This document shows positions 593-23,861 of a DNA stretch of 23,861 bases, one piece after another. Position numbers and translations under genes: made by a program. The notes beneath the pieces were generated by a model. It saw nothing but the letters and a program-made list of their open reading frames with translations. It made no database searches and had not been told where the DNA came from. The stretch comes from Fragilaria crotonensis (taxonomy: Eukaryota > Bacillariophyta > Fragilariophyceae > Fragilariales > Fragilariaceae): positions 1 through 23,861 of the forward strand of contig JAKSYS010000805.1 in assembly GCA_022925895.1 (NCBI GenBank). Reading direction: 5' to 3'. How positions within the stretch are numbered: position 1 is the stretch's first letter; the number at the start of each line of letters is the position of its first letter.

Positions 593-611
593 GCTTGACG
601 AAGTCCTTCGA

Positions 612-2820: not shown

Positions 2821-3768
2821 GGGCAATTTCTGGCCAGATTGCATCTTGTTGTCGAGGACAAACACAGGACATCCAAAAGGTTGAAAATGATTCAGATTTG
2901 GAGTGACTTCAGACCTTGCAAACAACTCAAAGGGAGACTTGTGATCCACTCTTCCAATTGTTGGTGTAGAGTTGTGAATTTCATTGGCCACTCTGAGAGC
3001 ATAAGGCCAGAGATGTGCATCAATAGCCTTAGGCCACCTGTGCTGAGCATGAATCAACATAGTTCTTGCTTGGTCTTGCAAAGTCCTGATCCTTCTTTCT
3101 GCCACAGCATTCTGAAAATGAGCATTGACTCCACAGAAAGTGATTGTCTGACCTGCTTCCTTGACAGCTGCCATGAACTTGTTCTCTGCAAACCTGCCAT
3201 TGTCAGCTTGATAACTCTTGACTTGGACCTTGAACTTGGAAGCATACCTCTCAAAGGCCAGCTTTGCTTCAAGAGTTTCATCTGCATTGGTTGACTTCTG
3301 AAGGTGGATGTAGGACAAACCACTGAAGTGATCCACAAAGATTGTTGCCACCTTGTACCTTTTCTTGGTGAGCCAACCCTTGATTTGGGCAATGAGCCCT
3401 GGAGTACTGGACTCCAACTGATCGATGCTGATGCACTGTCCCGGCTCTGAGGCTGTTCGAAGTTTTCCACCTTGTTGACCACCCTTTGGCTTGGTTCTCC
3501 ATGGTCTTCTGGTGGCCTTTCCATATAAGCAGCTGGTGCAGGTTGGAACTTGGCACTTGGCCAACTTCTTCGGGAGCAAACCGCGCTTGGCCATGCTTTG
3601 CATTTTGGCAGCCGACATGTGATTCAACTTGTGATGCCAGCGAAGGAACTCTGCAGCAGGGTTCTCATGAACGGCAGTGTCCTCTTCGTCGTCAATGACG
3701 ACTGGCAAGTCGGTGCGGTCAGTAGCATCAAGGTCAAATGAGACTGGTGTATTTGGAGGATGACTCAA
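2821..3768 (-). CDS. pol: Copia Pol: integrase (zinc-binding GAG-pre-integrase plus DDE core)
   Basis: Integrase joins the double-stranded DNA copy to host DNA. An HHCC zinc-binding domain comes first (residues about 45-80 of this frame: HHKLNH ... CTSC). The catalytic core follows with D116 in SIDQLESS, D189 in QADNGRF and E224 in GVNAHFQNAVAERR, a D-D-x34-E arrangement. The wording NAHFQNAVAERRIRTLQ is very characteristic of copia elements. This is the longest uninterrupted Pol frame (~310 correct residues). It has no ATG of its own and is the continuation of the upstream protease segment through a short frame-2 stretch at about 3770-3960. After WEVRA at about 2820 the reading moves to another frame. 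Confidence 0.93.
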
Positions 3769-3769
3769 T

Positions 3770-4704
3770 CCACCCCTTGGGATGAGGTATCTGGTGCTTC
3801 TGGTTGATGAAGAGGTTCCTGACAGTCTTCATTTTCATCATCAGGGATGAGATGGGTTTCCATGTTAATGATTGGGTCATCCTCATCCAGTCCCACCTCA
3901 CACATGTTGCAGAAGGTGTTGAAAGCCTTGTAGCTTGGAGCAGTATACATGGTTGCAATGTTGCCACTCCTGGTTCAACCTCACTGTTTTGGTGTGCTGT
4001 CTTTGGGCCCAGTGTAGTTGAATGCTGTCATGGTATGTTGCACACCATGTGCCTCTTGGCAAAGGCTTGAAGTCTTGGGCAGTCTGGGCCCAATGCTGTG
4101 GAGACAACAGCTTTGAAGGTGAATCCTTGACATAGAGCCCATGTGGAATGACAATGTCATGAGGAACTCCTGTATCATCTTCAATTGACCACTTGATAGT
4201 CCCTGAGTAGATCTCAGTAAGTGTTCCACCCAACCCCTTCAACTTTTTGTTGACCCTCTTGAGAGGAGTGATGAAGTCTTTCTTGTCATTGGAAATGCAA
4301 TAGGATGCACAGTTGTCAATCCTAATAGCCTTGGAATCAGTATCAAAGCTTGCTGCTTCATCTTGGTGGGCTTGCCTTGCCTTCATTGCAATGACTGCTG
4401 TCAGGCAGTTGAGTTGGTGGAATTCCTTTGTATCTTGGCCTTTGCCCTTCATCCAAGGTCTTGGTCTTGGTTGCATGCTGAAACTCCCATCATGCATCCA
4501 TGACTTGACATATTCAGACACTGTGACTGGGTGTACCTTCCAATTTCTCACCTTTCCTGAGGCCTTGCTTGAATTTGGATTGGTAACCCACACCTGAACA
4601 GATTGGACAATGGCCTCCAAGCCATGGCTGAAGAGGTAGCACACGTCTGCGCACCATCTCTGCCACCACTTGAAAATCCAAAGCCCAATGAACACGCAGT
4701 CCAT
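3770..4704 (-). CDS. pol: Copia Pol: N-terminal region and aspartic protease
   Basis: This encodes the retropepsin-type protease that matures the polyprotein. The active-site-like motif is AIRIDNCASYCISN, with D130 of the frame starting at 4704; D-N-C-A-S stands in for the usual D-S/T-G-A-S. Downstream are TIKWSIEDDTGVPHDIVIP (flap-like strand region) and SPSKLLSPQHWAQ, a block that follows the protease in this copia group. The first frame runs to 3898. From about 3960 the homologous reading is in another frame (YKAFNTFCNMCEVG, then an acidic stretch), which leads to the integrase. Gag ends in a TGA 13 bases upstream in the same frame, so expression needs readthrough, reinitiation or splicing, unless the stop is private to this copy. 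Confidence 0.85.
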
Positions 4705-4716
4705 TGGGCGTCCCCA

Positions 4717-5937
4717 TCATTCATCATCATCGGAGATGGCTGCGAGCGCTTTGGCCAGTTTCATGCTAGGCTGCTTGGAGTCTTGACCCTTGTTGCCTTG
4801 ATCCTTCTTGGGACCACCTTTGAAACCAATACCCTTACAGTCAGAAGGCTTGTGTCTGGTCCACCTGTTGTGATTGGGGCACCAATGGTAGTCCTTGCCT
4901 TCAACAGTCTTGGACTGCTTCTCTCCTTCCTTGGGATGAACATGTACCCATGCTGGAAGATCCTCAACTCTGAACTTGCCTTTACCCTTGTCTTTCTTGT
5001 TTCCCTGCTTGTTGTCCTTCTTTCCTCCTCCACTGGACTTGCCACTTGCTGGATTAGGTTTCTTCTGATTGGACATGAGGGTTTTGACTTGGGATTGCAA
5101 GGCAATGATAGTTTCCTCCTCTGTAGTCTTGAGGCACCACTGCTCTGACTCTTTCCTGGTTTTGAACTTGTTGAGAGCCCAGTCCATGAGCTGTTGATAC
5201 TCAACTTGGCCACCTTCTTCATAGAAGTCTTCCTTCTTCTTGATGTAGTCCACAAACTCAGCATCCTTGCAGGCCTTGTAACCTTTGAACAGATTCACCA
5301 GGAGATCTTGGGTTTGTTCACCCTGGCAGAGAGCTTGCTGACCAATCCAAGGACATAGTCATTAAAGAGTTCAATGTCAGAATCGATATCGCGCATGGCA
5401 TGATCAAGACTGGAGAGCTTGGTCCGACACTAGTGATGGTGGCTCTGGTATCCACATGTGAGACCATGATAATGACCTTGAGGAGGACTGGACCTGATCC
5501 TTTACCTCCAAAGATGAAGGGATGAACATTGCCTCTGGTCCTGACCTGCTTTTGAGCAGCATCAGTCAAAGAGTTCATGAGACAATGGTACATCATGAAG
5601 GAATCTTGAGCTTCCTGGCATCCTCATGCATGTAGGTGAGGGCATGGGCTCTGACCTCCTCATAGGAGATCTCTCCATAAGACTCAATGAGATCCTTGGA
5701 ATTAGCCACATTGCCTTGAATGGGAATGCTAAGAATGTTGAGCCAATCAAAGACTATGGATCTATCCCTGGTTTGATCAAGGAAGAGCTGAAGATTGTCT
5801 GACTTGCAGTCAAACTTGATGGACAAAGCCTCAGTACCAGACTTGAAGAGCTTGGCAGCAGCCTGCTCAGAGTAGTTGAGGACATCAGGATTAGCAAAGG
5901 CTGGAGCCAATGCAAAATGAGGGGCTGGAGCAGCCAT
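4717..5937 (-). CDS. gag: Copia Gag with atypical zinc knuckle (frame-broken)
   Basis: This is the structural protein of the virus-like particle. The ATG at 5937 starts an N-terminal part (to 5593). The homologous reading then continues in other frames: MMYHCLMNSLTDAAQKQ with KVIIMVSHVDTRATITSV (about 5596-5420), SSLDHAMRDIDSDIELFNDYV (about 5417-5330), then the last 193 residues in the original frame (5298-4717). The middle matches the UBN2-type Gag fold of copia elements. The C-terminal part is lysine/glycine-rich (about residues 79-110) followed by a knuckle C140-x2-H143-x5-H149-x4-C154, not the classic C-x2-C-x4-H-x4-C. It ends in an acidic SDDDE. All three internal breaks are equivalent to loss of one base. 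The TGA stop sits in the same frame as the following pol start. Confidence 0.88.
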
Positions 5938-6058
5938 GGTTGACCTTGAAGCTCAAATGAAGTACTTGACTTGAAATGATCCTGATTGATCAAGGAAAGC
6001 AGCACTGGGCTTGCAGGTGAGCTTGAAAGGTCAAAGAATAAAGCACTTGGCTTGTACT

Positions 6059-6075
6059 TAGCGCAGAGGAAGCGT
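6059..6075 (-). other. Primer-binding site resembling the D-arm of initiator tRNA-Met
   Basis: The base directly inside the 5' LTR begins a 17-base site whose plus strand, TAGCGCAGAGGAAGCGT, matches the remembered eukaryotic initiator tRNA-Met positions 8-25 (TGGCGCAGNGGAAGCGT) at all but one fixed position. It would pair with an internal tRNA segment, not the 3' CCA end, implying a tRNA fragment as primer. Copia and Ty5 are known to prime from cleaved initiator tRNA-Met. The exact cleavage point here is inference. Confidence 0.55.
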
Positions 6076-6638
6076 AAAGTTTTATTCGCAGTGTTTGAGA
6101 CTGCAAACAAGGGCTAACGACGAATTAGTTATCGCAGGAGCGTTTGTACTCTTTGGTAGAAATTTGTTTTACTAATTGTGAGATGTATAAAACATGCAGA
6201 AAATGAAATTGGAATGACTGAATGAGAGCTCTGAAGCTGCACTTTCCTTGTTCTCTCTGTTCTCTGGTTGTTCCTTGATTGTTCTTTGTTAGTTCTTCAG
6301 AATCCCATGGTAGAATGGTTGGTTGAAAGATACTGAATCCCAGATGAATATAATGAAATATAAAGCATGTAAAATGTAGATTTGATGATGCACCAGTTTG
6401 TGTTCTCTTGTGATGTCGGCTGGCGATTGTGCTTCCCATTTATGTGTCCGCGGAACATCCGACAATGACCGAAGAACAATGACGCAAACACTTACGAGAA
6501 CGCTAACGCGAAGCGTGACTCAATCGTGCGAAAGAGAACCGAACCGTGACTCACAGAAACTTTGGTTGACGAACGGACGGAAGGAGAGGTAGAGTATGAT
6601 CCACGACGGTAGACGCCAATACTGTATCTTTTCTTTTA
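6075..6638 (-). repeat. 5' LTR of the copia element
   Basis: Direct repeat of 18-581 with one extra G near 6122 and one fewer T near 6287. The element RNA starts within it and runs leftward. It abuts the primer-binding-like site at 6075, which supports this boundary. The right flank begins AAGTACC at 6639. Confidence 0.95.
6358..6553 (-). promoter_or_regulatory. LTR promoter: bZIP-type sites upstream of a TATA-like box
   Basis: In element sense the LTR carries TGACTCA-type AP-1/GCN4 sites (plus-strand positions 6547-6553 and 6516-6522, 31 bases apart), a CRE-like TGACGCAA (6480-6487), then a TATA-like CTTTATAT (6358-6365) about 115 bases further downstream. The 3' LTR repeats them at 490-496, 459-465, 423-430 and 301-308. 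The order is that of an inducible promoter, and bZIP factors often mediate nutrient or stress responses. Function is inferred from motifs only. Confidence 0.4.
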
Positions 6639-6972: not shown

Positions 6973-7092
6973 TCAGTTCAGCATGGACAATGCTTTCTAA
7001 ATTAAAATCATTGTTGCATTCACGTAGACAAACAGCATTGCTTTCAATGCTAATGTTGCCAACTTCGTAAATGGCGGCATTTCCGAATAATT

Positions 7093-7440
7093 TTCTACCA
7101 GTAATGTCGCCGCTTGTACACGATGTCGACATTAGTGGATTTTTTTCTACCAGTAATGTCGCCGCTTGTACACGATGTCGACATTAGTGGATTTTTTTCT
7201 ACCAGTAACGTCGCCGCTTGTACACCATGTCAACATTAGTGGATTTTTTCTACCAGTAATGTTGCCGCTTGCACACGATGTCGACATTAGTGGATTTTTT
7301 TCTACCAGTAATGTCGCCGCTTGTACACCATGTCAACATTAGTGGATTTTTTCTACCAGTAATGTCGCCGCTTGCACACGATGTCGACATTAGTGGATTT
7401 TTTTCTACCAGTAATGTCGCCAATTGTTTGGAGACTTTAG
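7093..7440 (+). repeat. Left foldback arm: tandem ~52-bp units
   Basis: CTACCAGTAA recurs seven times at about 7096, 7147, 7199, 7250, 7302, 7353 and 7405, giving six units of 51-52 bp. Units carry GTCGCCGCTTGTACACGATG, GTCGACATTAGTGGA and a T run of 6-8. Units alternate between GATGTCGACATT and CATGTCAACATT variants, which suggests two-unit amplification. An open frame over 7269-7517 simply translates the repeat and is not taken as a gene. Confidence 0.93.
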
Positions 7441-7800: not shown

Positions 7801-8355
7801 AAAGTCTCCAAATAATTGGCGACATTACTGGTAGAAAAAATCCACTAATGTCGACATCGTGTACAAGCGGCGACATTACTGGTAGGAAAAAATCCACTAA
7901 TGTCGACATCGTGTACAAGCGGCGACATTACTGGTAGAAAAAAATCCACTTATGTCGCCGTTGTGTACAAGCGGCGACGTTACTGGTAGAAAAAATCCAC
8001 TAATGTCGACATGGTGTACAAGCAGCGACATTACTGGTAGAAAAAAATCCACTAATGTCGACATGGTGTACAAGCAGCGACATTACTGGTAGAAAAAAAT
8101 CCACTTATGTCGCCATCGTGTACAAGCGGCGACATTACTGGTAGAAAAAAATCCACTAATGTCGCCGTGTTGTACAAGCGGCGACATTACTGGTAGGAAA
8201 AAATCCACTAATGTCGCCATCGTGTGCAAGCGGCGACATTACTGGTAGAAAAAAATCCACTGATGTCGCCGTTGTGTACAAGCGGCGACATTACTGGTAG
8301 GAAAAAATCCACTAATGTCGCCGTGTTGTACTAGTGGCGTCATTACTGGTAGAAA
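7801..8355 (-). repeat. Right foldback arm: ten inverted ~52-bp units
   Basis: TTACTGGTAG recurs 11 times from about 7826 to 8344. The best units read GGCGACATTA-C-TGG, an ~10-base loop, CCA-C-TAATGTCGCC, so each monomer can fold alone into a ~13-bp stem with one mismatch. Units vary at the second half-site (TAATGTCGAC or TAATGTCGCC) and linker (ATCGTGTACAAGC, GTGTTGTACAAGC). Unequal arm lengths (ten against six) indicate independent expansion or contraction after inversion. Confidence 0.93.
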
Positions 8356-8373
8356 AAATCTGCAAATTCCGCC

Positions 8374-10637: not shown

Positions 10638-11319
10638 AACTTCGCGAAAGTAGATCGGCAAGATTCAATCGGACCTGGATTGAATTGGTTCCTTCAAAGT
10701 GAAACCTAGAAATAAGCTCATAAGTTAAACAACTCTAGAATTAAAAACTCTACGTTTGACCGAACCCGGATTTCTACGAACTAGTACGCAGCCTTGATCA
10801 CGCCGTGTACTTCGACTACTGGAGTACTACTAGAGTACAACCTGCCTGACACCTGACACTTGAGACGCGACTGTGCTAGTAGTAGACATCCGGTAAAAAA
10901 AGCAGAACAAAAGTAGCACATCTACGGTAGTAGTCCCACAGCTACTTTTGAAATCCAAAACAGTTGTCGAGAATTGTAGGCTAGTAGTACTGGATAAGAC
11001 CAGTACCGGTTCGACAGTAAATACTGTTGTCGGTTAAAAAATGTTTTGAGATGCGAAGTTCAGTCGGGATGTCAGATTCGAGTCTCACGTGAACTCCAAA
11101 TTTGACAGCACAGCACGACTGAAGTGGAAAAAGACTTCAAGATTAATTGTGGAATGGAATTCCAGCAGAGGGTCTTGGAACAATGCAAAGATTCCATTGA
11201 AGGCCAAAACTAATGGGAAGTCAATTAAGAAAATTAAGAGTTAAGAGTGATGGAGAATGGACAGAAGTCAATTTTTGAAGAACAGAGAAGAACAAGGACA
11301 GAGTCCCAGGAAGGAAGAA
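10638..11319. other. Gene-free stretch before the satellite
   Basis: No frame over about 60 codons and no repeat structure seen. AT-rich with many stops in all frames. Confidence 0.5.
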
Positions 11320-11972
11320 GACTGACGATGGTATCATGGGACAAAAGGGAACCTGAAGAAAAGAGTTAGTTTAGAAAAAACACATAACTTGACTTCATCA
11401 AATTTGTCAAGGCCTGACAACTGCAATTGTTATCACCCCATAACCTGGAGAAAAGAGTTCCTCAAAGACTGACAATGGTCTGATGGGACAAAAGGGCCTG
11501 AAGAAAGGAGGTAGTTTAGAAAAACTCATAACTCTTACTTCATCAAATTTGTCAAGGCCTGACAACTGCAGTTGTTATCACCCCATAACCTGGAGAAAAG
11601 AGTTCCTCAAAGACTGACGATGGTCTGATGGGACAAAAGGGAACCTGAAGAAAAGAGTTAGTTTAGAAAAAACACATAACTTGACTTCATCAAATTTGTC
11701 AAGGCCTGACAACTGCAATTGTTATCACCCCATAACCTGGAGAAAAGAGTTCCTCGAAGACTGACGATGGTCTGATGGGACAAAAGGGAACCTGAAGAAA
11801 AGAGGTAGTTTAGAAAAACTCATAACTCTTACTTCATCAAATTTGTCAAGGCCTGACAACTGCAGTTGTTATCACCCCATAACCTGGAGAAAAGAGTTAC
11901 TTTAGAAAAATTCATAACATTTACTTCACTGAATTTGTCAAGGCCTGACAACCGAAGTTATCACCCCATAAC
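11320..11972 (+). repeat. Satellite of ~146-bp units with A-B-A-B pattern
   Basis: GACTGACGATGG-type unit starts lie at 11320, 11467, 11612 and 11759 (periods 147, 145, 147). Units 1 and 3 share ACACATAACTTGACTTC and GCAATTG; units 2 and 4 share CTCATAACTCTTACTTC and GCAGTTG, so the repeat is a ~292-bp dimer. A fifth copy (about 11896-11972) lacks roughly the first third. All carry TCAAATTTGTCAAGGCCTGA or close variants. The array stops 56 bp before the DIRS-type element. Confidence 0.9.
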
Positions 11973-12028
11973 CAGAGCAAGAACTGTGATACCAAGCTTG
12001 TGTAAATCTAGGATTCTCAGCAAACAGT

Positions 12029-12328
12029 CACGAAATAAATTCCGAGTCTTGTCCGCATTTCTCTAAGTCCGTTTAGTCGGATGAGTCGGCCGCCTAGTGG
12101 TTTCGTCGTACCGCTGTCTCGCGTACTGTCGCGTCGATTCGTGTGTTGCTGTGTGTGGTTTTCTGGATTCTCCTTCATGTTCACGAGGCTAGTGGAACTA
12201 AATAGATGGCATCGGAATCTGGTCCTAATAGTTTTGTCTCTCTCTCCTGGTTCGTCTCGCGGGGTCGGTCCCGTGATATTCATCTAGCGGGGTCCGTCGC
12301 GTCGTTGTGAGTCGACCTGGTTTCCGCC
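12029..12328 (-). repeat. Split direct repeat B2 (outer 3' end)
   Basis: Matches 12564-12861 over 300 bases with two single-base indels, both in or beside runs (TTTT/TTT and TCC/TC). Begins CACGAAATAAATTCCGAG at the element boundary. It contains no gene; open frames in it repeat in B1. Confidence 0.93.
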
Positions 12329-12416
12329 CCATGCAGTGCATGGCCAGGAGGTAACGGCGCCGGAGGCGCCGATGAACCTAGGCATCGGGCCAGGAGAGGA
12401 GGTGTGGGTGGGTGGG
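12329..12416. other. Hairpin-rich unique spacer between A2 and B2
   Basis: The only part of the 3' repeat region that is not repeated. It holds three adjacent inverted repeats: CCATGCA-G-TGCATGG (12329-12343), CGGCGCC-GGA-GGCGCCG (12355-12371) and CCGATG-8-CATCGG (12369-12388), then a G-rich stretch (GTGTGGGTGGGTGGG, 12402-12416). The position suggests a structural role in replication, transcript ending or circle formation, which is inference. Confidence 0.6.
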
Positions 12417-12565
12417 ATTAACTAGAGTAGTGTCTTTGTTGATTCGAGTTCGTCCGGATTGTGAGCAATTCGCATCTTGTGTTGTGTCCGGGTGTTCGTC
12501 TGTCTGTGTCTCGTGTTCGTCTGTCTGACGGCGACTGCTCTCCTTTCCGAACTTCGGACATGCCA
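12417..12565 (-). repeat. Split direct repeat A2 (internal copy)
   Basis: Matches A1 at 18817-18967 from ATTAACTAGAG to CATGCCA, with two single-base run-length differences (CTCTCCTTTCC against CTCTCCCTTTCCC). It contains two short direct repeats of GTGTTCGTCTGTCTG. It abuts B1 with CA shared at 12564-12565. Confidence 0.93.
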
Positions 12566-12861
12566 CGAAATAAATTCCGAGTCTTGTCCGCATTTCTCTA
12601 AGTCCGTTTAGTCGGATGAGTCGGCCGCCTAGTGGTTTCGTCGTACCGCTGTCTCGCGTACTGTCGCGTCGATTCGTGTGTTGCTGTGTGTGGTTTTCTG
12701 GATTCTCCTTCATGTTCACGAGGCTAGTGGAACTAAATAGATGGCATCGGAATCTGGTCCTAATAGTTTGTCTCTCTCTCTGGTTCGTCTCGCGGGGTCG
12801 GTCCCGTGATATTCATCTAGCGGGGTCCGTCGCGTCGTTGTGAGTCGACCTGGTTTCCGCC
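12564..12861 (-). repeat. Split direct repeat B1 (internal copy)
   Basis: Copy of B2. The recombinase gene ends inside it (stop at 12817), so the last ~15 codons of the recombinase are repeat sequence and are also present, out of context, in B2. Confidence 0.93.
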
Positions 12862-13769
12862 ATTTTCCGGTTGTCGTTCGTCCGCAGGATCATGGGCGAC
12901 TGTGAAGAAAGTTTGTCGATTCGTCATGCGCGTGGCGACCCCGATCGTGGTGTCTGGCACTTGGATGCGTAGGTATCTCATGAACGTCCTGCTCCGCCAA
13001 CGGCCCACCATCTGTATCGTTTCGCTTGGCACACCTGCCAAGTGCATTGCCATGGCCGCGCCCGACCTAATCGAGTGCGTACCGATTCGATCGGCCTGGA
13101 GTCCCAGCCTCTCCTCTCGATAGTATTGTCGCGGCCCTCAGCTGTTCGAGGATCGTTTTCGAAGAGACGTGTTCGAGCTCGTTCGATGTTGTCGATACGA
13201 AAGCGTTTATCTTCGGGTTCGTCCGACCAAGTCGTTCGTAGCCTCTAATTCTGTGAATCAATTCCGCAAGTGTCCGTACCGGACATATGTCTGCCTGACC
13301 GGGGTTGTTGTTCCTGTGCTGCGTCACCTTCGCTCCTTTGTCTCCGTTCTTTTGTTGTCGATAGGTGATCGTTACGGCGTCTGCATTTCGGGTTTGTTCG
13401 TAGGAGAAAGTCGTCAGCGTTTCGTCCTGTTTCCTGAATCGAACGTCGTCTACTCTGACTACCGATGTTCGTCTGCCGCCTCCCACGTCGGAGTATTCGC
13501 AAGACCTCATGGCGAAGAAAAGGCCGTGACCACCAGTTGTCCGACTGCCACGTCCAACTCGTTCCTGGACCAGGATCTCACCTTCCTGATCACTTCAAGA
13601 GGAATGGCTTGTTGTTGTGCGACTCCCGGGTCGTCGTCCGCGTACTTCTTCAATTGTAAAGCCAGAAGGGGTCGAGGCGTCCGGCGGAGTCGTGGATTGG
13701 GCTCTCAAGTTTGTTAAGCCTGAAGGTCTGAGCCACACCGTCGAGGGTGGCACGAATGGTACCGGACAT
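12817..13769 (-). CDS. Tyrosine recombinase of the DIRS-type element
   Basis: The recombinase inserts the circular DNA copy at the target. The N-terminal core-binding part begins near 13769 (GTIRATLDGVAQTFR), passes through LQLKKYADDDPGVAQQQ and reaches the catalytic domain. Catalytic Arg I is in FFFAMRSCEYSD (about 13505). A lysine-rich beta-hairpin region (TYRQQKNGDKGAKV) and a conserved DICPVRTLAELI follow. The H-x-x-R box THSIRSGAA has its H at 13077-13075 and R at 13068-13066. GRWRSRTFMRYLR holds the nucleophile Tyr (Y27 of the last segment), with W at the usual second H/W position, as in Cre. The reading changes frame at about 13650, 13515 (a four-T run one short) and 13070. All R-H-R-Y residues are present. 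Confidence 0.9.
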
Positions 13770-14500
13770 GGCTCCATTGCCATCTGTCGCAGGCTGTCTG
13801 GAGCGAAGCCGTCCGTCCCGAAGGGCGGCAGCGAAACACGCGAAGATTTCCGTCCTTTCGTTTCGTCCGAACCGGCGGAGAAAGGGTCGAGGTCGACTCC
13901 GACTCGCTCGAGGAATCGTGCGTAGCAGTTCCAGCTGCTGCTGCGCTTGGCGCGGGTTGAGTCGGCAAGAGCTGCGTTTTGGGCAGCAGACGCAGCCAGT
14001 CTCCAATCTGCGAAATGAGGGCTGGCTGCAAGGGGATGATCCTGAAGTTCTGTGGGACAAAGGGTGAGCCATGTTTCCTGATGAGCGAGGTGACCTCGTC
14101 GTCGTCGAGCGCGAAGTCTCGCGATAAAATGTCCGCCACCTTGTTCTCTCGCCCGGGAACCATTGAGTGTAGTGGTCGATCTCGTGCGTCAGACAGAAAT
14201 CAGCGAAACTCCTCGCGATGGTGAGGTGAAGCGGACAGTTGTCGTCGAAGCTGGACTTTGCCAGCCACCCTGCGGCCGAGGTGCTATCCCCTGGCTTAGC
14301 AGGACGTCCGAGACTGGCGACCACTTTTTCCTTCGCGGAATTCGACTACCATTCCCACGAAGGCTGCTAGAAACTCCAACGTATTAAGTGTCGCTCGTCC
14401 CGCTAGATCTTCGGGCAGTTGGTATCGCCAAGCAATCCCGCTTTGGAGACCATATCCTCCTATCCCTTGCGGGCAAGCGTCCACCCGAACGATTCGCGTC
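13770..14500 (-). CDS. RNase H domain and linker of the DIRS-type Pol
   Basis: This domain removes the RNA template after cDNA synthesis. First acidic residue is in IVRVDACPQGIGGYG (D near 14481), the second in TLNTLEFLAAFVGM (E near 14376) and the third in PGDSTSAAGWLAKSSF (D near 14288). The WFPGRENKVADILSRDF block (about 14165-14110) is the usual close of RNase H in Ty3/DIRS-like Pol proteins. After it, a variable Ser/Ala/Pro-rich linker (about 14050-13850) leads to the recombinase. The domain is spread over two or three frames. The same polypeptide probably continues into the recombinase, since no separate start is evident. Confidence 0.85.
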
Positions 14501-16162
14501 GGCCACCTGCAGACCAATCTGTTGATGGAGATCCCTTGCGCCGCTCTTCGCAGGAAGCTCCTCCAAAGGCTCAGGTCATCGCGTTGGGGATTCGTCAGTC
14601 TCGTCTTTCCACTTCGTTTCGATCTCTCGCATGCCTTGTAGAGTCGCCCCATGAAATGCCTGGAGTACGGGACGACGTATGCGGCGTGGCTGAGTCGTCC
14701 GAGGGTCTTCTCAGATCGTTCGTCGTTACGTGCGCATGCCTGTTCGCTAGGATCTTGTCGATCACTTTCGTCCATGCGTGGTATTTGTCCTCAGGCAGAG
14801 CGACCGTGAAGCGGCGTGTGTCTACCAGCCATCCCAAGATCATCTTCCGCTCAGATGGTTTCGCCTCGGCCAGGAACTTCGGGATGGCAAGGATGTCGTC
14901 TCTGGGAAAGGATTCGTTTCCCTCTGCGTTGTGGGGTCTTCCCACTATGTGCAATGCAAGGGAATCGCTGCCGAGCTCTTTTCTGCGTCTCTTGGGTTGA
15001 AAGCCCCAAAATGTCGTCCAGGTAACAGTCGAATCTGGGTAGATCGTCGTCGTTTGCGATCGGGTAGTTCACAGCGAAGAAATCGGCTTCTCCGAATTCG
15101 CTCGACCCGTCGATCATTCCATCGTCGTTATCTACGGCTTCGTCAGAATCAAGCAAGTGTTGATGCGGCGAGTGGAATACCTTCGGGTCCCAGTCTGATC
15201 TCCTGACGAGGTCATTCGCAAGGTCCGTGATTACTTCGGACACGTCGCTCCACTGGGACGGGTTTGGTGCTCCTCCGAAAGTCATCCTGAGTGCCACGAG
15301 GAGCAGGTCGTCAATGCTAGTGCAAGACTTCAGGGCGGTTCGTGCCTTTAAGTGTATTCGTCTGTAGGCGGATTTGCAGTCCACCTTTGTGAGGAGGATG
15401 GGTTCTTTCGGCCACAATTGTCTGAGGTACGAGATGTGGTACATCAGTCGACTGAAAGCCCTGCCAAATCGTGCGGTCGTCAGTTGTGACGTGTCCACTC
15501 TGTCGTTTACGCTTCGTCCTGGGATCCCGCTGGGGTTGAATGACTGGTCGTGTGAGCCTTAGCTTCTCGATGGTCTGTCCCTTCTCGTCGATCGATGTCT
15601 GTGCCACCATGCCCAAAGGCGCCACCTCGCAGCCTTCTAATTCCAGAGCGGCCTCCTCGGTAGGGGCAGTTGCCAGCCCCTTTCCACTTCTTCTTTTAGC
15701 ATTGATATCAACTTCGCTTCGTGGCCTCGGGCCGATTTGTGATTGCCACGGGCGAGGTTGTCGCGGACGTCGGCGAGGCGGTCGGCGTCGGAAATCTCGC
15801 GGAGGAAAATCCGCGCCGTCTGAAATGCGCTCTTGGAAGCGCGACCAGAGCGGGTGTGCGGAGAGGCGGCGCCAGGAGCGCGGCGGATCGAAATTCGGAT
15901 CCGGGTGTCACCGCGCTGAACGGTTGGGCGTCCACGGCTGCCCCGAGGTCCAGCGCGTAGCGCCGGAGGACTGCCAGGTTGTGAGCGGCCGCCTCGTGAG
16001 TCCATTCGAAGCGGAATTCGGTCGGGTGCGTCGTCGGCTGGGGGGCGTCGAGGATGCTGGCCAGAGCATCGGCGAGTCGAGGTTCGGGAAGGCGCGGGAA
16101 AGGCGAGTCGACATTCGGAAGCGGTATCGTCGGAAGTGGAACCAGGGCGAGTGACTTACCGT
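14500..16162 (-). CDS. Reverse transcriptase of the DIRS-type element
   Basis: The region starts with a conserved leader (GKSLALVPLPTIPLPNVDS at about 16160) and the pre-RT module (EISDADRLADV, RGNHKSA, KEEVERGWQLPLP; 16005-15640). Fingers follow (KLRLT, then SFNPSGIPGRSVND). Palm motif A is LLTKVDCKSAYRRIH (D40 of the frame starting at 15498), motif B FGGAPNPSQWSD (74-85) and motif C CYLDDILGL (Y159 to D162). An acidic insert of about 45 residues separates B and C. The thumb/connection part (KMILGWLVDTRRFTVALPEDK; then SHAAYVVPYSRHFMGRLYKAC) lies in two further frames down to 14500. Breaks lie near 15650, 15545, 14950 and 14700. The divergent copy at the right of the window reads through the 15545 site, which shows that break is private to this copy. 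Confidence 0.92.
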
Positions 16163-16463
16163 TGGTCCTAGGACCCCAGAGGGGTGTCAGGAGTCGTGAC
16201 GTGAGACGAACGTCCTCGTTCGCAGTGCCGGGGCGGTCAGCTCCGCGGCGGACGGTCGTGGGCGGTCGGGCGGGCGAGGCGGTGTCGCGGCCGCGAGCGA
16301 TGTCTCATGCGTGGCGATCGTTGCCGTCGGGCGTGGTTGTGCAGCCGGGATTGCTATGGACGGACCCGCTATGGGTCCATCGGTCGGCTGGCGCGAGTCG
16401 CGGAAAGGCGGTGCGTCCCCTGTCGTTCGTCGATTGTGAAATTCGCGATGGGCTGCCTCGTGA

Positions 16464-17196
16464 TCAAAGGACCACCGGGAAGGCTGAGCGACGAAAAAGT
16501 TGTAGTGTAAGCAGATGCAGAGGTCCTAATTTCGTTTTCTTGCTGGGCGGCGTCGAGTCGGACGAGGGTCGGCGCATGCGCGCCCTGCATTGTTCGATCC
16601 ATGCCCTAACGCTCGCGGTTTGTTCGGTCGTAAGGGCGACGTGCGAAGCGCTCAGGAAGCAGCTCCGGACACACTTGCCGTTCAAGTGCCAGCGGCAGCA
16701 CATGTTCGGGAGCGGCCCGCTCCGCACGTGATCGAGGAAGACCTGCCAGACGTCGTTGGCGTCCTTCGTGAACAGGTCCTGCTGCGGGTTCGTGACAGCG
16801 TCTGCTGGTTGTCCCTTTCGTCCAGATCGTGCGCCGCCTCCTCCTGATGCGCTGGGGCTTCCGCCTTCGCGGCAGCTGCCCCGGACCCCATCCTGTCTTT
16901 CAAGAAGTCGCAGGCGGGAAGACGAAGGCTCCGTCCTCCAGTTGCTGACGCGTCGAACGGAAGTCTAGCAGATTCAGGTTGATATCGTCCTCGTGTTCCA
17001 CTCCTGCGCACAACACCAAGTATTGTTGCGTGCGTTTCTCGATGAACCAACCGAGGCGACAGGCGGCCGAGTTGTCTTCGTGAGCTAGCTGTCGTAACGT
17101 CGCTAAGGTCGATCCGACTGCTCGCGTCAGGAAACGACACCACTCGTCCAACATATGCGTCAACGGGGACCGCGGGCCGAAGAGGAGCTCGGCCAC
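16464..17196 (-). CDS. C-terminal part of the Gag-like protein, with CCCH-type finger
   Basis: Continuation of the Gag-like ORF in other frames. The first segment has SPLTHMLDEWCRFLTRAVGS, LGWFIEKRTQQYLVLCAGVE and RSTRQQLEDGAFVFP (17196 to about 16915). A Gln/Arg-rich linker follows, then NMCCRWHLNGKCVRSCFL with a downstream His (about 16710-16650). The spacing C-x8-C-x3-C-x5-H is that of CCCH fingers found in Gag-like proteins of many microalgal and fungal retroelements. An RNA-binding role in packaging is likely. Frame breaks are at about 17190 (GGGG one base short) and 16915 (a missing G). The second copy confirms both as continuous protein. Confidence 0.75.
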
Positions 17197-18752
17197 CCCG
17201 CCATGTTCTCGAGTAGTCGCGCGAGCTCGTGAAAATCACGCGGGATAGTGAAATTGAGCTTCGTCATGCTCTTGATGTCTTTGTCCGAGAATCCAGTTGT
17301 CGTGTCTGTCGTCTTAAGTTGCATTTGAACAAGGGTGCTTGCGTGGTCGAGAGCATCCCTGCCCGTCGCGTTCGATCGTGCGAGCGTCTGGGGCCCGCAG
17401 CAAAAAAGGCTGAAGGCTCCTGGTCTGTCCGAAGCGTCGGCTAGGAAGGATGCGGTCCGAATGGCTGCGCAGAAACCCATTGGGATGAATGCATCCCTCC
17501 CTTTCGTGTTGCGCAAGAAATGGTGTATGTGGTTTTGGACGTACGCCACGTTGCTGAGCGCTAGGATGTCTGCGAAGGTCTGGACGGGGCGAGTTGGGGT
17601 CCTCCCAAGGCGTCCTTCTCCGAAACGAACAGGATCATCCGCTTTGTCGACGGGGAACGAGTCGAATCCTGTCTTCGGGATTTGAGGAGATGACGCGACT
17701 GCGCTAGCGACCTGTCTTTCGAGGAGGCTCGACAAGTTTCTGATGGCGTCGTTCTCTCGTCCTGGCGTTTCTGACTGATCGTCCGATTGGATGAGGCTTT
17801 TAGCCTTCACGGCCAGGTACTTCATGTGTAGGACTTTCGCCCAGTCGTCCGCTCGCCTAGAGTAAGCTGACGAAGCCGCCACTCCCACTTTGTTGGACCG
17901 TGAGTGGTTCTGGTGCTCGCTGCAACGCAGAGAACCCATCGAGTACGTAGGACGCTGCTTCGGCCAACCTCGACGCCCGGTCGGGGTCCGGTCCTCACTC
18001 GCCCTCTGTTTGATGGTCCTGACTATCATCAGGGCCAATTCCTCAGGGTCGGTGACGTATGATTCCATGATGGCTGCTGCGATGAACGCCGGAACTGGTA
18101 CTGTCGGTTTCATGGTGAAACCGACGACCGTGACGTCTTCTGTGTCGTCCGCGTCCGCGTCGTTCGTCTTGTCTTGGTCGTTAGTCTCGTTAGTATGTTT
18201 GCTCGACTTGGATCTGCCTCTTGGGGCACTGCCTTTCTTGGGGCGTCCTCTCGTCGCTGCCACAGGAGGTGGCTCCCGCGCCGGCGCCGATGCCTGTCCG
18301 GCGCTCTCGCTGACGCCTGACACCGAAGATCTCGTCGTCACCAATTCTTCAATCGCTCTTCGTACGTCGGACGTAGAATTCCACGTGAGCATTTTGGACC
18401 AATCGTAAGGCGTTCCAACGTGGCTTCTGACGATCTGTTTCGTGTCGACCGCCATGGCGGCTGCGAATCCACCGCCGCCGAGAAGTGCCCATAGGGCGTT
18501 CGTTCCGTCGTTTAGTCCGTCGTCGGCGTCGTGGTGAAAGTGGTGGAACAGACGGATCGTCCCGTGCGTGTTTACCATCAGGTGTGCGATGTCCGGCGAA
18601 CACAGGTGTACAAACCCTGTAGACTCCGTATTAATCGAATTCGATTTCGTGTGTAATCTGTTGAGCTTCGGGACCACTTCCCACTGGTCAAGGGCACGGA
18701 AGACGTCTTCCCACGTAGACGTCATCGTCATAGGGGACGACATGTCGGCCAT
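17160..18752 (-). CDS. Gag-like ORF1 of the DIRS-type element, with AT-hook motif
   Basis: 530-codon frame starting at the ATG at 18752, 65 bases after repeat A1. It is the longest clean frame in the window. It belongs to no family I can name; its position marks it as the Gag-like ORF1. Conserved blocks shared with the second copy are VFRALDQW (17-24), HHFHHDADDGLNDGTNALWAL (70-90), RGRPKKG (168-174), TVVGFTMKP (208-216), AFIAAAIMESYV (222-233), NVAYVQNHIHHFLRNTKGRD (401-420) and FIPMGFCAAIRTASF (422-436). RGRP with flanking lysines is an AT-hook core and could also act as a nuclear localisation signal. A strongly acidic patch follows (DADADDTED). The last ~11 residues (from about 520) are off-frame; the protein continues in the 16464-17196 segment. 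Confidence 0.85.
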   Translation of the reverse strand: MADMSSPMTMTSTWEDVFRALDQWEVVPKLNRLHTKSNSINTESTGFVHLCSPDIAHLMVNTHGTIRLFHHFHHDADDGLNDGTNALWALLGGGGFAAAMAVDTKQIVRSHVGTPYDWSKMLTWNSTSDVRRAIEELVTTRSSVSGVSESAGQASAPAREPPPVAATRGRPKKGSAPRGRSKSSKHTNETNDQDKTNDADADDTEDVTVVGFTMKPTVPVPAFIAAAIMESYVTDPEELALMIVRTIKQRASEDRTPTGRRGWPKQRPTYSMGSLRCSEHQNHSRSNKVGVAASSAYSRRADDWAKVLHMKYLAVKAKSLIQSDDQSETPGRENDAIRNLSSLLERQVASAVASSPQIPKTGFDSFPVDKADDPVRFGEGRLGRTPTRPVQTFADILALSNVAYVQNHIHHFLRNTKGRDAFIPMGFCAAIRTASFLADASDRPGAFSLFCCGPQTLARSNATGRDALDHASTLVQMQLKTTDTTTGFSDKDIKSMTKLNFTIPRDFHELARLLENMAGWPSSSSARGPR

Positions 18753-18816
18753 CCTATCTGCGTTCGTCGTTCGAGTCGTCGGTCGGTTGGTGGTTTGAGG
18801 GAAGAGGCCAGATTAA

Positions 18817-18967
18817 ATTAACTAGAGTAGTGTCTTTGTTGATTCGAGTTCGTCCGGATTGTGAGCAATTCGCATCTTGTGTTGTGTCCGGGTGTTCGTC
18901 TGTCTGTGTCTCGTGTTCGTCTGTCTGACGGCGACTGCTCTCCCTTTCCCGAACTTCGGACATGCCA
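18817..18967 (-). repeat. Split direct repeat A1 (outer 5' end)
   Basis: In element sense it begins TGGCATGTCCGAAG and ends before the 5' untranslated stretch 18816-18753. Copy of A2. The outer boundary is set by loss of similarity after CATGCCA at 18967. Confidence 0.93.
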
Positions 18968-20620
18968 GGTAGAGAGATTCTCTTTTTGTTGTTTGCAGCA
19001 CGTAACCCATAGCCGTACAACAATTTGGCTTAATGTGATACACTAATTAACATAGTTCAATGATGTCCTCATAGTAGAAGATACTCCCAAGATGACTTCA
19101 CAACTCAGATTCCTTCAAAACTTCTCATGTCATCCAGTTTAAAATCCATTTAAACTCAGAATCACAGCAGCTAGAGGGCACAAGATCATGCATCAAGTTA
19201 GACTGCATTGGTGTTGTCATAACTCTTCAGAGCTATTTCAAAACGTAGAAGCCTAGATTGACTATTCATCACTACTACTAGTGAACTACAAGTTCCATTA
19301 ATGCTTTTATAGACATTTCTTGCTGAAAGAACGAAAAGTTGGCTTGCAGCTTAAATGGCTGCACTTTCCTGTTCAACTTCCTTCATTTGAAGTTTCTGGT
19401 CCTTCAAGTCAATCTTTTCCTGTCTAGTACACTTCATGTGCTGGCCCATGCCTTCATTGGAGCATTGATGCAAAGTCATCCGGGGCCTTCAAAATCAGGC
19501 TCAACAAATTTTCAAGGCTTGTGCAACATCATCGCCTATGCAATCTGGAGTAGAGTGTAATCGCATCTAACTGGTGCTCCTTCACGGATTGGACATTATC
19601 CATTGAAACAGCCTAGCTAACATCATTAAAAGCTTGATGATCACAAAATTGCTGTGCCGCCAGTGATGGGTTTCAGATGTTTCTCATAGTTGTAATCATG
19701 CGTTCCACAGGCCTGACCTCTTGCATATTTCTTTGTATAGGATCAAGCTTGGATGTTCAAGCAGCTGTCCCTAAGGTACTTTGGCATTGGTATCCTTGTT
19801 GTTTTCAGGCTATGGCCAATCATTTCTACCGATGTCTCACTGACTTTGGTATTACGATGCCAAGTTTCTTGTGCCCACGTCACCATAGGAAAATGTCGTT
19901 TCTTCAATAGATCCTGGCCGAAAACGAGGTCGATCAGATGACCTACTATTGCAATGTGGCACATCGCAATGACAAAAGTCATTAGTGAATACTACTGGGT
20001 GATGAGGACATGATGCCATGTTTTGTGATCCCAAAACATCAGTACAAAAGCATCCTCAAAGAAATTGCCGGCAATGCGCGCTTCCTCAAGTCGGAGCAAA
20101 GGTCAACAAAAAACAATAATGTACTCGGACAAAGACAAATCATTTCAACATGGAAGTACTTTCCGAAGAAGTAAACACGTCGAATGGAATTTGTTCAGTG
20201 TCAAGGTGAAGGGGAATTAGGGCTTCAAATTCACCAAAGGACCCCAAAATTCATGAAGTTACTAGGGGAAGTCCATTCTCAACTTCACCAAGCTGAGGAC
20301 CCAGAAACTGTACTGGGTCCAGAGTTCTGTAAAGTTGTACTGTAACAGTGCGAGGCTCTCTCTCTCTAGTGTCTACACTCTGGGCCATGTGCCTTAATTA
20401 ACGTCACTTGCCTTAATTAACTATCATTTTCATTATATTTGGTGCTTTTCTGCAGTTTATACTCGTGCCACTGAAAAAATGCTCAAATTGCAGTCACGAC
20501 GGAAAGATAGCGACACGCTATCTGTGCTCAATTGATCCTGACCTTTTCTTTATTTTCGGTAAGTCACTGACTTGAAGCAAGCTTGATACTTGATTTTTCA
20601 TCCGCAATCAGTCTCTGACA
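18968..20620. other. AT-richer flank between the two DIRS-type elements, no convincing gene
   Basis: No recognisable host gene. Small features: a (CT)n run at about 20355, a GCCTTAATTAAC motif repeated at about 20390 and 20410, and a small hairpin AGATAGC-GACAC-GCTATCT at 20503-20521. A GGTAAGT donor-like site lies at 20558-20564. Low GC contrasts with both flanking elements. Confidence 0.5.
19743..19982 (-). CDS. Small unrecognised reading frame
   Basis: 79 codons from ATG at 19982, starting MTFVIAMCHIAIVGHLIDL. It contains LIDLVFGQDLL, vaguely like the DxILGxDxL end of retropepsins, and MPKYLRDSCLNIQ. There is no second motif to support that reading. It may be a decayed retroelement fragment, an exon, or chance. 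Confidence 0.15.
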   Translation of the reverse strand: MTFVIAMCHIAIVGHLIDLVFGQDLLKKRHFPMVTWAQETWHRNTKVSETSVEMIGHSLKTTRIPMPKYLRDSCLNIQA

Positions 20621-20627
20621 AAGGTGC

Positions 20628-22760
20628 GTGATCTCGTGGTTGGACGTTTTCAGGAAGCTCGACCAGTGGGATCGTCGAAAAGCTCAGCGCTTTGAATTCG
20701 AACGAACTCGGTCAGTACAAATTCTACAGGATTCGTACACTTGTGCTCTGGAAGTCGCCCACCTTATGGTAAACACGCACGGAGTCATCCGACTCTTTCA
20801 CCACTTCCACCACGACGCTGACGATGGACTCAACGACGGGACGAACGCCCTTTGGGCACTGATGGGGCTGGCGGCTTCGCCGCCGCCATGGCGGTCGACA
20901 CGAAACAGGTCGTGAGACGACACCGGAACGCCTTTTGATTGGTCGAGGATGCTCTCGTGGAATTCTACGTCGGACGTACTGGCGGCGATCAATGAATCTC
21001 TGACGACACGTGACCAGGTGCCAGGCGTCAGCACCGGAGCCACAGCGAAGCCGAGCCAGCCGGCACCCTGCCGACTGCAACCAGAGGACGACCGAAGAAA
21101 GGCGGAACGAAGCACCGGGCGAAGCCAAGCAAGCCAGTCGCGCGAGCGAGGACGACACAGACGACGTCACGGTCGTCGGGTTCACGATGAAGCCCACCGT
21201 CCGGTGCCGGCCTTCATCGCAGCCGCCATCATGGACACTTACGTCACCGCGCCAGAGGAGCTCGCCCTACTGATCGTCAACGCCATTAAACAGAGAGCGA
21301 GCGAGGACCCAGACCCGTCCAGAGCAACCATCCGCGCGGAGGCTCTTACATCCCGCGGTGGGTCCTCAGCGTAGCGGTAAACTCGAGGAGGACCCCGGGA
21401 CCGACAAAGCGAGGGTGGCGGCATCAAACGCATACTCCAAACGATCGGACGAATGGGCGAAATCGCTACACCTCAAGCATCTGGCGGTCAGAGCTAGGAG
21501 CCTCATTCGGACGGACGACCATGCCAGCACGCCAGGACGCACAGAGGACGCCATTCGAAACCTGTCAACGTTACTGGAGCGACAGGCAGCAAACGCAGCG
21601 ACCTCGTCCCCCCAAACGTCGAAGACAGGCTTTGACTCTTTCCCGCCGTCGACGAAACGAATGGTCCTTTTCGTGTCCGAAAGGGACGCCGACAGGATGA
21701 TTCGCAGCCGCCCGGTCCAGTCTTTCTCGGACATCCTGACGCTTAGCAACGTGGCCTACGTACAAAACCACATCCACCACTTCTTGAGGAACACCAAAGG
21801 TCGAGACGCGTTCATTCCCATGGGCTTCTGCGCCGCAATCCGCACCGCTTCTTTCACGGCCGACACACCTGACCGGCCAGGGGCCTTCAGCCTCTTCTGT
21901 TGCGGTCCCCAGACGTTCGCCCGAGCAGCAGCGATCGGGCGAGAAGCCTCTGATCACGCCAGCACCCTTGTGCAAATGCAACTCAAGACGACCGACACGA
22001 CCACGGGCTTCTCGAGAAGGACATCAAGAGCATGACAAAACAACTTCACGGTGCCGAAAGATTTTCACGAACTCGCGCGGCGCCGAACATGAGCGGAGTG
22101 CTGGAGCTCCTTCGAGCCAATTCCCGCTCACACACATGTTGGACGAGTGGAGCCGTTTCCTGACCAGGGCGGTCGGCTCCACACTGGCGACAACTCCGCC
22201 AGCTAGCGCGCTGACCCCTCAGCCGCGTGCAGGTTGGGTTGGTTCATCGGCATGCAACAATACCTAGTTCTCTGCGCTGGAGTCGAACACGAGGACGAGA
22301 TCAACCCAGCACTCCTAGAATTCAGGTCCACCCGGCAGCAGTTGGAGGACGGCGCCTTTGTCTTCCCGGCCTCGCGACTTCCTCAAGGAGCGGCTGGGAC
22401 GTGGAGTCGACCAAAGGGCGACTCGCAGCCTGTAGCCGCCGCCGGAGGCTCGAGCGGACGTCGCGGGCAACCGCGGACGCAGTCACAAACCCACAGCAGG
22501 ACCTTTTCCTGGAGACGCGAACGACACTTGGCAGGTGTTCCTCGATCACGTCCGAAGTGGACCGATCCCGAACATGTGCTGCAGGTGGCTAAACGGGAAG
22601 TGCGTCAAGAGCTGTTTCTTGAGCGCCCGCCGTCGCCCTCACGACCGAACAGACGACCGCCGTACGAGCGTGGATAGAGCAGTGCCGGGCGCGCATGCGC
22701 CGCCCCTCGTCCGACGCGACGCCGCCCAGCAAGAAAACAAAATTAGGACCCTCTGCATCT
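20628..22760 (+). pseudogene. Gag-like ORF1 of the second DIRS-type element (frame-broken)
   Basis: Homologue of the 18752-16464 protein in at least five frame segments: 20628-20915 (VFRKLDQW, HHFHHDADDGLNDGTNALW), about 20930-21090 with the AT-hook RGRPKK at 21083-21100, about 21130-21350 (DDVTVVGF, AAAIMDTYV), 21400-22005 (NVAYVQNHIHHFLRNTKGRD) and 22100-22680 (PLTHMLDEWSRFLTRAV, QYLVLCAGVEHEDEIN, CCRWLNGKCVKSC). The finger lacks the His between Trp and Leu seen in the first copy. The 5' start differs: the ATG at 20628 yields MISWLDVFR, and upstream residues of the first copy are absent. Breaks are more numerous than in the first copy and include lost or rearranged stretches, so real decay is likely here. 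Confidence 0.75.
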
Positions 22761-23099
22761 GCTTACTAGCCCGCCTTCGTCGCACAGCCGTCGCAATGGG
22801 CGTTCGACCCGGAACGGTCGACGGCCGAGTTCCACAACAGACGCCACGTCGGACGCGGACTTTATCGGAATCTGCCGCCCGAGACAGTCGCCGGGAACCC
22901 ACGCGCACGAACCTTCTCGCCCCGCCGTGTCGCCGACGCCGCATCTCTCGCCAGCCCGCGACGACCCGTCACGAAACGAAGTCGGGCCTGGGCGCTACGC
23001 TCCGCCCTCGACTCGCCACCGACCGACCACCCGTGGCGCGCGCATTGTCGCCCGGAGACGCCCACGACGCGCCGACATCAGCCCTCGCAGACACGCCAC

Positions 23100-23861
23100 G
23101 CCCGCTTCCCGGTAAGTTCCCATCGTTGGTGCCATTGCCGACGATCCCGCTCCCGAACGTCGACTCGCCGTTCCCGACTCCCGAACCACGCCTGGCCGAT
23201 GCCCTTGCCACTATTTTGCACTCCGGCCAACCGCGCACCCACGCGACGGAGTTTCGCTTCGACTGGACGCACGACGCCGCCCGCCACAACCTCGCGGTGC
23301 TCCAACGGTACGCCCTCGACCTCGACGCCGCCCTTCGGGCCCAGCCGTTCAGCGCCCTGACGCTGGGATCCGAGTTTCGCCACCGAACTTCGCGCTCCTG
23401 TCCGCCCACCCTCTGGCGCGTTTTCAGGAGCGCATCTCGAAGGGGCCGAGTTCCCTTCGAGATCTCGGATTCTGACCGCCTCACAGCGGACGTGCGCTTA
23501 ACCAGCTCAGCGGCAATCACAAATCGGCCGAGGCCACGAGGCAAAGTTGATATCCATGCTGAAGGACAAGCCTCAAGGGGCAGCTACCACCGCCGCGAGA
23601 AGCCGCCTTAGGAATCAAGGGATGCGACGGTCGCGCCTCTGGGGATGGTCGCGCAGGCGTCGATCGGCGAGAAAAGAGAAATTCGTAAACTCCGACTGAC
23701 ACATGACCAGTCATTCAGCCCGAGCGGAGTGGCAGGGCGAAGCGTAAATGAAGCGCGTGGACACATCCCAACTGGCAAACACGTTTCGGAAAAGCATTCA
23801 GCAGACTCATATACCACATCGTTCCTGCGCCAACTATGGCCCAGACGAGGCCTATCTGGAT
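23100..23861 (+). pseudogene. Pre-RT and RT N-terminus of the second DIRS-type element, partial
   Basis: Starts at the conserved GK leader, LVPLPTIPLPNVDSPFP, then TEFRFDWTHDAARHNLAVL, LALDLDAAL-like and AQPFSALTLGSEFR blocks, EISDSDRLTADV and ITNRP. The RT fingers LRLTHDQSFSPSG and GRSVNEA lie near 23690-23750, and the segment preceding motif A is near 23800-23861. Motifs A, B and C lie beyond the window. A stop at 23609-23611 and frame changes near 23400, 23560 and 23750 interrupt it. It confirms continuity across several breaks in the first copy. Confidence 0.7.

Follow-up and report, generated by a model that had tools for sequence, protein, structure and literature searches.

Tyrosine-recombinase retrotransposons are not new to stramenopiles: 80 Ngaros are reported from four Cafeteria strains (PMC8547959), and 15 Ngaro and 5 PAT-like families from Ectocarpus (PMC12477816), which does not support the suggestion, made in an earlier sequence-only reading of the locus studied here, that such descriptions are few. 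The nearest relatives by description, as far as the accessible text of the source goes, are the four types of Ngaro in Cafeteria burkhardae, which share with our element the order A1-[ORFs]-B1A2B2, a stramenopile host, a recombinase with HxxR and Tyr, and a GC-rich insertion of similar size (6-7 kb there, 6.9 kb with 57.5% G+C here) (PMC8547959). This likeness is one of description, and whereas empty sites yield a base-level integration rule for our element, none was found for the Cafeteria Ngaros in that text. DIRS1-like elements likewise store a circle junction and make no target duplication, and a circular intermediate has been proposed for them, but they carry inverted rather than split direct repeats and, according to the available text, undergo recombination where 3 bp are identical between element and target (PMC3266345), an identity that our element does not need. 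PAT-like elements, VIPER and TATE resemble ours in combining split direct repeats with a tyrosine recombinase; however, PAT elements have a putative methyltransferase, none being recognised here, and the descriptions of VIPER and TATE come from kinetoplastids (PMC4157794, PMC6681497, accessible parts). For neither Ngaro nor PAT elements was a base-level integration rule found in the available portions of PMC8547959, PMC4157794, PMC6681497, PMC3266345, PMC12477816, PMC4482531, PMC9210276, PMC2685390 and PMC9345347, and we do not claim that none is in print.

The window, a 23,861-nucleotide stretch of the Fragilaria crotonensis genome, contains a young full-length retrotransposon of Ngaro layout at 12031..18967 on the minus strand (6,937 bases), standing out from the 41-43% G+C of the adjoining DNA. 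Its genes lie on the minus strand, and thus its "right" end is its 5' end. In coding sense, the 5'-terminal A1 repeat (18817..18967, ending ...ACATGCCA) is followed by the genes, the B1 repeat (12566..12861, starting CGAAAT...), the A2 repeat (12417..12565, likewise ending ...ACATGCCA), a spacer outside the repeats found by repeat comparison (12329..12416) and the 3'-terminal B2 repeat (12031..12328), all on the minus strand. The A and B repeats were placed by alignment: the B pair (12029-12328 versus 12564-12861) is 99.3% identical over 300 columns and the A pair (12417-12565 versus 18817-18967) 98.0% over 151 columns, both far above chance. The split direct repeats of a DIRS-order element that had been read from the sequence are therefore present, in the order A1-genes-B1-A2-B2, and the position of the internal repeats downstream of the recombinase is the Ngaro layout. 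No pair of inverted repeats, the mark of DIRS1-like elements, was found in 11000-20000 with a seed of 15 and a minimum length of 30, and an Rfam search of the window gave zero matches at gathering thresholds. A second copy of the same group, which lacks its A1 end and is truncated where the contig stops, occupies 20635..23861 on the plus strand; from 20635 on it is about 95.5-95.8% identical to three other genomic stretches (L021, L023 and L026). It was considered as a third family and proved to be the second subfamily, already sampled.

A recombinase frame fragment at 13067..13510 (minus strand), its frame broken in the assembly, aligns with the recombinase frame of another copy, L022, in which the R of AMRSCEY, HSIR, GRW and Y are present, which we take to be the tyrosine recombinase motif set. 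The R, HxxR and Tyr expected of a Ngaro recombinase are thus found in L022 by motif, together with a weak PF00589 match whose E-value of 0.0019 falls short of the curated cut-off; a PDB sequence search with this frame returned no recombinase. A Ngaro would also have reverse transcriptase and RNase H. The putative reverse transcriptase fragment (14854..15558, minus strand) carries YLDD, presumably the reverse transcriptase motif, which appears in 20 of the 21 stretches scanned, with none listed for L028; this region has no Pfam or PDB match. Structure predictions were too poor to be usable for both (pLDDT 36.6 for the recombinase, 33.2 for the reverse transcriptase), and family searches support the two assignments weakly. 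In L027 a continuous 874-aa frame runs from the reverse transcriptase motif into the recombinase with zero Pfam matches, and Pfam gave no methyltransferase match in the frames scanned, a weak sign that this domain is absent. The first reading frame (17160..18752, minus strand; 530 aa) is gag-like by position only, its single Pfam match being implausible and below its cut-off.

The window copy reads CAGT-CA-CGAAAT at its left end (CA at 12029-12030), ACATGC-CA-CGAAAT at the internal A2/B1 junction (CA at 12564-12565) and ACATGC-CA-GGTAG at its right end (CA at 18966-18967). The internal junction is therefore a stored copy of the sequence made by joining the two outer ends, as had been proposed, and it occurs in exact form at 48 places in the genome. 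Which of the flanking CAs belong to the element was decided by other copies. All 33 readable right ends are ACATGC|CA, and the pattern AWCTTCGGACATGC has 110 matches genome-wide while AWCTTCGGACATGC followed by CA likewise has 110, so the CA after the A-repeat end is the element's own. The CA at 12029..12030, by comparison, most likely belongs to the flanking target DNA, since the dinucleotide here varies between copies. With the ends set from the readable ends among 50 copies and from 12 informative empty sites, the previously proposed right end at 18967 stands and the left end moves from 12029 to 12031. Near matches of the junction with two mismatches lie at 22 places, of which 8 read TGGACATGCCACGAATT; seven places read CGGACAGACC. 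The former were considered as a related family and six of the eight examined: the only long one (L116) does not resemble the element, the other five have the same surrounding sequence as L116, and these are taken for an unrelated repeat. Of the latter, one of the seven places was read and dropped.

By script, the left end could be read in 38 and the right end in 33 of the 50 copies. Four copies sharing flanks with another copy (C22, C208b, C641a and C74a) were dropped, leaving 34 left ends, 31 right ends and 24 two-ended distinct insertions; C74a served in the empty-site test only, standing for the C208a insertion, and the left ends of C510 and C74b, with flanks common to C133 and C208b, stayed outside the counts. 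All copies come from one genome and from a single lineage, in which two subfamilies are present. Within each element A1 equals A2 and B1 equals B2, although between the subfamilies these repeats diverge by about 10%. As a pattern, this shows that the internal copy and the outer ends are renewed together, the copying route being surmised.

Twelve kinds of dinucleotide precede the left end in the 34 distinct insertions. The sequence-only reading had the crossover occur at a CA common to element and target, and the flanks of the window copy agree with it, as do the 3-bp identity rule given for DIRS1-like elements in the available text of PMC3266345 and an excess of CA before the left end (8/34 versus a 7.5% background, p=0.003). 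However, CA is missing from 26 of the 34 left ends and from 10 of the 12 informative empty sites, so that neither shows the target identity expected of a DIRS1-like element, and the left outer end of other copies departs from the internal junction in this CA, a mismatch named beforehand as telling against the idea. Together with the CA fixed at the A-repeat end, these observations refute shared CA as a requirement and leave it as a mild preference only; we regard recombination at a shared CA as very improbable. The left CA of the window copy is coincidence or such a preference. CA in the target is unnecessary and site preference is weak, about CA|N-G/T-C/G, with information at target positions -2..+4 above all 2,000 control draws (a range picked after the left-end dinucleotides had been viewed).

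Unoccupied sites bear directly on the join. Twenty-three of the 26 two-ended copies entered the searches (C22, C208a and C389 were left out), in which 40 of 64, 114 and 96 candidates, respectively, were scored; the second search was dominated by the repeat around C80, and six of its eight insertions (C191, C35, C87, C131, C182a and C55) were not properly covered. One or two sites were aligned for insertions with several listed, giving 20 alignments that cover 14 insertions, of which C366a (83%, with gaps from the join onward) and C551 (right side only) were uninformative. In all 12 informative cases the empty site equals left flank plus right flank, with zero bases gained or lost at the join. 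Insertion is therefore precise and makes no target duplication, including the longer one that had been put forward as a contrary outcome. For six insertions (C125, C40, C271a, C98, C271b and C835), junction and flanks have no base in common, and hence the position of the join cannot shift. Among the matches listed, C641b had some across the join and C785 and C92a had none. For the window copy itself the search did not turn up an empty site: its closest candidates had 3 mismatches in 19 bases, at 5 places versus 45 for a control pattern, and a search with the joined flanks gave, among the matches listed, only the window copy. Many empty sites are repeats and are hence paralogous sites, not proven alleles.

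Could such neat junctions arise from collapsed or misjoined repeats in the assembly? Assembly indel errors are frequent, as the paired repeats (19 B1/B2 and 18 A1/A2 pairs) show 70 indels, 47 of them in homopolymers, versus 5 substitutions in 8,438 aligned columns, but identical ends recur in many contigs with differing flanks and agree with unoccupied sites across the join, and an artefact is accordingly hardly credible. Linear cDNA with exact ends, made or trimmed by the recombinase and put into breaks by host end joining, would account for a group of truncated copies, at least six, in which the A end is exact and a regular left end is missing (C249, C366b, C287, C322, C431 and C572). One of them, C249, has a 35-base target duplication, and these copies also count against the favoured reading given below. 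End joining usually leaves small losses, whereas none is seen at the 12 informative sites, and the base preference in the target also speaks against this route, which we consider unlikely.

On the favoured reading, the element's tyrosine recombinase, by analogy with known families, would act on a circular intermediate containing ACATGCCACGAAAT, and the element ends, as the empty sites show, join the target always at the same position, ...GCCA^CGAAAT..., placing CGAAAT after the left target base and GCCA before the right target base with no target base gained or lost. All two-ended insertions read the join at CA^CGAAAT: among the 24 distinct ones, the left dinucleotide differs from CA in 18, and the reverse arrangement, CA to the left and target bases to the right, does not occur. 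In well-studied tyrosine recombinases the exchange is staggered and involves both strands, and such an exchange, if resolved randomly, predicts two classes of ends; the single class seen suggests that integration is strand-asymmetric, the exchange of one specific strand deciding the product. A single-stranded or nicked circle may be inserted, with the host completing the other strand. An ordinary staggered exchange would also give identical final ends if repair or replication always corrected the mismatched core to the same strand, but each of the 18 distinct two-ended insertions that lack a left CA would have to end this way, with a chance of about 8e-6 under random resolution, and we hold this explanation to be possible yet doubtful. 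An appearance of strand asymmetry could also be produced by bias in mismatch repair or in resolution. One-strand exchange is what the products of a tyrosine recombinase point to in the Vibrio elements SE-6945 and SE-6283, strand-biased circularizing integrative elements, although these are bacterial DNA elements with a 6-bp spacer and no reverse transcription, known in this respect from PCR and sequencing in the accessible text, and offer an analogy only (PMC9345347). A young Ngaro-layout element with a stored junction, integrating at a fixed point without target change by an exchange that we infer to be strand-asymmetric, is in our judgement very probably the best explanation.

Irregular copies may add to this account. 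In three of them B2 is broken, at element positions 180, 182 and 187, and another shows a fusion of A1 (about 44) to B2 (about 190), which suggests that irregular copies record RNA ends, with a transcript that begins near window 18860-18875 and stops near 12208-12218 and whose missing ends would be restored from the A2|B1 copy inside the element. A joint reading, in which circular and perhaps single-stranded cDNA undergoes single-strand exchange independently of target homology and the irregular copies record RNA ends, is tentative and rather less than an even prospect; if true, it would explain the fixed single join and the lack of duplication in the products of such tyrosine-recombinase retrotransposons.

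How tyrosine-recombinase retrotransposons enter chromosomes has so far been largely inferred from sequence. Here, dozens of young copies and unoccupied sites in one genome fix the join to the base, and the short identity with the target that forms the DIRS1-like rule is unnecessary for this family. The predicted strand asymmetry is concrete and could be tested with purified recombinase.

The tyrosine-recombinase retrotransposon at window 12031-18967 is genuine and well resolved, and represents a kind of element that is already known. It is 6.9 kb long with its genes on the minus strand, and its split direct repeats A and B are arranged as B2-spacer-A2-B1-body-A1 in window orientation, or A1-genes-B1-A2-B2 in coding sense, the same order of repeats and genes as that reported for Ngaro elements (PMC8547959). 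The element has a G+C content of 57.5%, versus 42.8% and 41.3% in its flanks. Its reading frames contain a YLDD motif, which we take as a marker of reverse transcriptase, and what we read as the tyrosine recombinase motif (R, HSIR and Y) is found in a reading frame from a sister copy; the PF00589 match of this same frame is weak (E=0.0019, under the curated cut-off), and among the frames scanned no Pfam model matched reverse transcriptase, RNase H or gag. Elsewhere in the window, a minus-strand retrotransposon (18-6638) with direct terminal repeats at 18-581 and 6075-6638 (99.6% identical) encloses a gag_pre-integrs match and is presumably Copia-like, judging from its gene content. A 52-base unit forms two tandem arrays in mutually opposite orientation (7091-7421 and 7818-8360), and a 147-base unit is tandemly arrayed at 11318-11973 (four copies up to 11898 and an incomplete one after them), stopping 57 bases left of the tyrosine-recombinase element.

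In the assembly searched (62.1 Mb, 881 contigs), the internal A2/B1 junction CGGACATGCCACGAAAT occurs at 48 exact places and at one more with a single mismatch. The host is likely to be a diatom, in agreement with the stramenopile source assumed in the sequence-only reading: a light-harvesting protein from this assembly has FCPI-7 (6ly5), an entry for a diatom photosystem, as its top PDB hit (E=9.2e-88), and PF00504 gives 61 matches. The block at 12029-12861 matches the genome at either 98-100% or 89-90% identity among the best 40 of 145 candidates, and these two classes indicate two subfamilies; a second copy in the window (20635-23861), belonging to the other subfamily, lies in opposite orientation to the first, is without its A1 end and is cut by the contig end. 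The set compared here comprises 50 copies: the window, 20 long stretches and end pieces from 29 more copies. Several insertions have the same or very similar flanks (contigs C208, C641 and C74; C40 and C22; C133 and C510; C322 and C667), and the contigs concerned represent either alleles or duplicated regions. In the window copy, BLAST identity is 99.3% for B1/B2 and 98.0% for A1/A2, and all differences are indels, every one in homopolymers. Across 37 repeat pairs (19 B and 18 A) from 21 copies (the window and stretches L009-L028), 8,438 columns hold 5 substitutions and 70 indels, 47 of the latter in homopolymers. Since substitutions within pairs are so few, whereas A and B are about 10% divergent between the subfamilies, the repeats are renewed together. 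The excess of indels looks like uncorrected long-read assembly error, and broken frames in the window therefore need not signal a dead element.

The sequence-only reading had observed that the internal junction equals the joined outer ends, and this stands; its further proposal, a crossover at a CA common to element and target, does not survive comparison of the ends. On the right, CA directly follows ACATGC in all 33 readable ends of the 50 copies, and AWCTTCGGACATGC has 110 exact genome matches, as does AWCTTCGGACATGC followed by CA, a count that takes in internal junctions and leaves out A ends deviating from the pattern. On the left, the dinucleotide before CGAAAT in 34 distinct insertions is CA in only 8, the others being TA (5), AA (4), GT, AT and CT (3 each), CC and TG (2 each), and AC, TT, GA and CG (1 each). 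Because CA is constant at the right and the dinucleotide varies at the left, CA is part of the A end; the CA on the left side of the window copy most probably belongs to the flanking DNA.

Unoccupied landing sites agree with this assignment. Joined flanks of 23 insertions were used in three genome searches, with 40 candidates scored per search, and 20 places matching both flanks in a single stretch were fetched for alignment against the actual flanking sequences of 14 insertions. Twelve of these (C125, C264b, C40, C411, C841, C80, C181, C271a, C98, C271b, C74a and C835) align through the join with zero bases gained or lost there, at identities of 0.915 to 1.000 in the aligned part. Some alignments have indels distant from the join, that of C271b covers 154 of 200 bases, and C74a has a mismatch immediately left of the join; C366a (identity 0.83, gaps starting at the join) and C551 (right side only) are uninformative. 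For C125, C40, C271a, C98, C271b and C835, the flanks have no base in common with the junction, so the position of the join is unambiguous. CA lies left of the join at two of the 12 empty sites (C264b and C841). Many empty sites are repeats and should therefore be regarded as paralogous, not as proven alleles. Insertion is seamless, and CA remains with the A end.

The target shows a weak base preference. Information summed over positions -2 to +4 around the join, a range picked after inspecting base counts, is 1.91 bits in 24 distinct two-ended insertions. Among 2,000 controls drawn from flanking DNA none attains this value; they average 0.51 bits and peak at 1.18. The strongest single position, -1 (0.52 bits), is equalled by the maximum of 19 of the 2,000 controls. 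In larger sets, -1 is A in 18/34, +2 is G or T in 28/31, and +3 is C or G in 26/31. CA at -2,-1 is enriched (8/34, p=0.003), which amounts to a preference rather than a requirement.

In several copies the outer portion of B2 is missing, with breaks at element positions 180 (C366b), 182 (C249), 187 (C182b), 296 (C322 and C667, with similar flanks), 320 (C427), 337 (C287), 357 (C431) and about 386 (C572). Right ends were read for six of these copies (C249, C366b, C287, C322, C431 and C572), and all six have an exact A end that includes CA. B2-truncated C249 (L019) has a 35-base direct target duplication (97%) at both ends, and no duplication adjoins the ends of C366b, C287, C322, C431 or C572 (right flank of 298 bases for the last four). 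In C366b (L020), A1 up to position about 44 is fused with the part of B2 that starts around position 190; in C841 (L014), part of A is duplicated at the 5' end of the element, where positions 3-147 come after positions 1-59. Post-insertion deletion is a possible explanation for most irregular copies, and C182b may be a regular left end plus an internal deletion, since CGAAATA immediately precedes its break. Alternatively, the C366b fusion, the C841 duplication and the B2 breaks may record RNA ends and template jumps.

As for integration itself, the recombinase substrate would be a circle, or an equivalent, bearing the junction GCCA^CGAAAT, and one strand would determine the outcome. If strands were exchanged with the conventional stagger, leaving a mismatched core, two end classes would be expected after replication; a single class is found among 18 distinct two-ended insertions with a left dinucleotide other than CA, for which the chance under random resolution is about 8e-6. 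The main rival is that biased repair or biased resolution yields this single class. Should one strand indeed determine the outcome, the bias would be comparable, by analogy only, to that of the strand-biased tyrosine recombinase reported for bacterial SE elements (PMC9345347).
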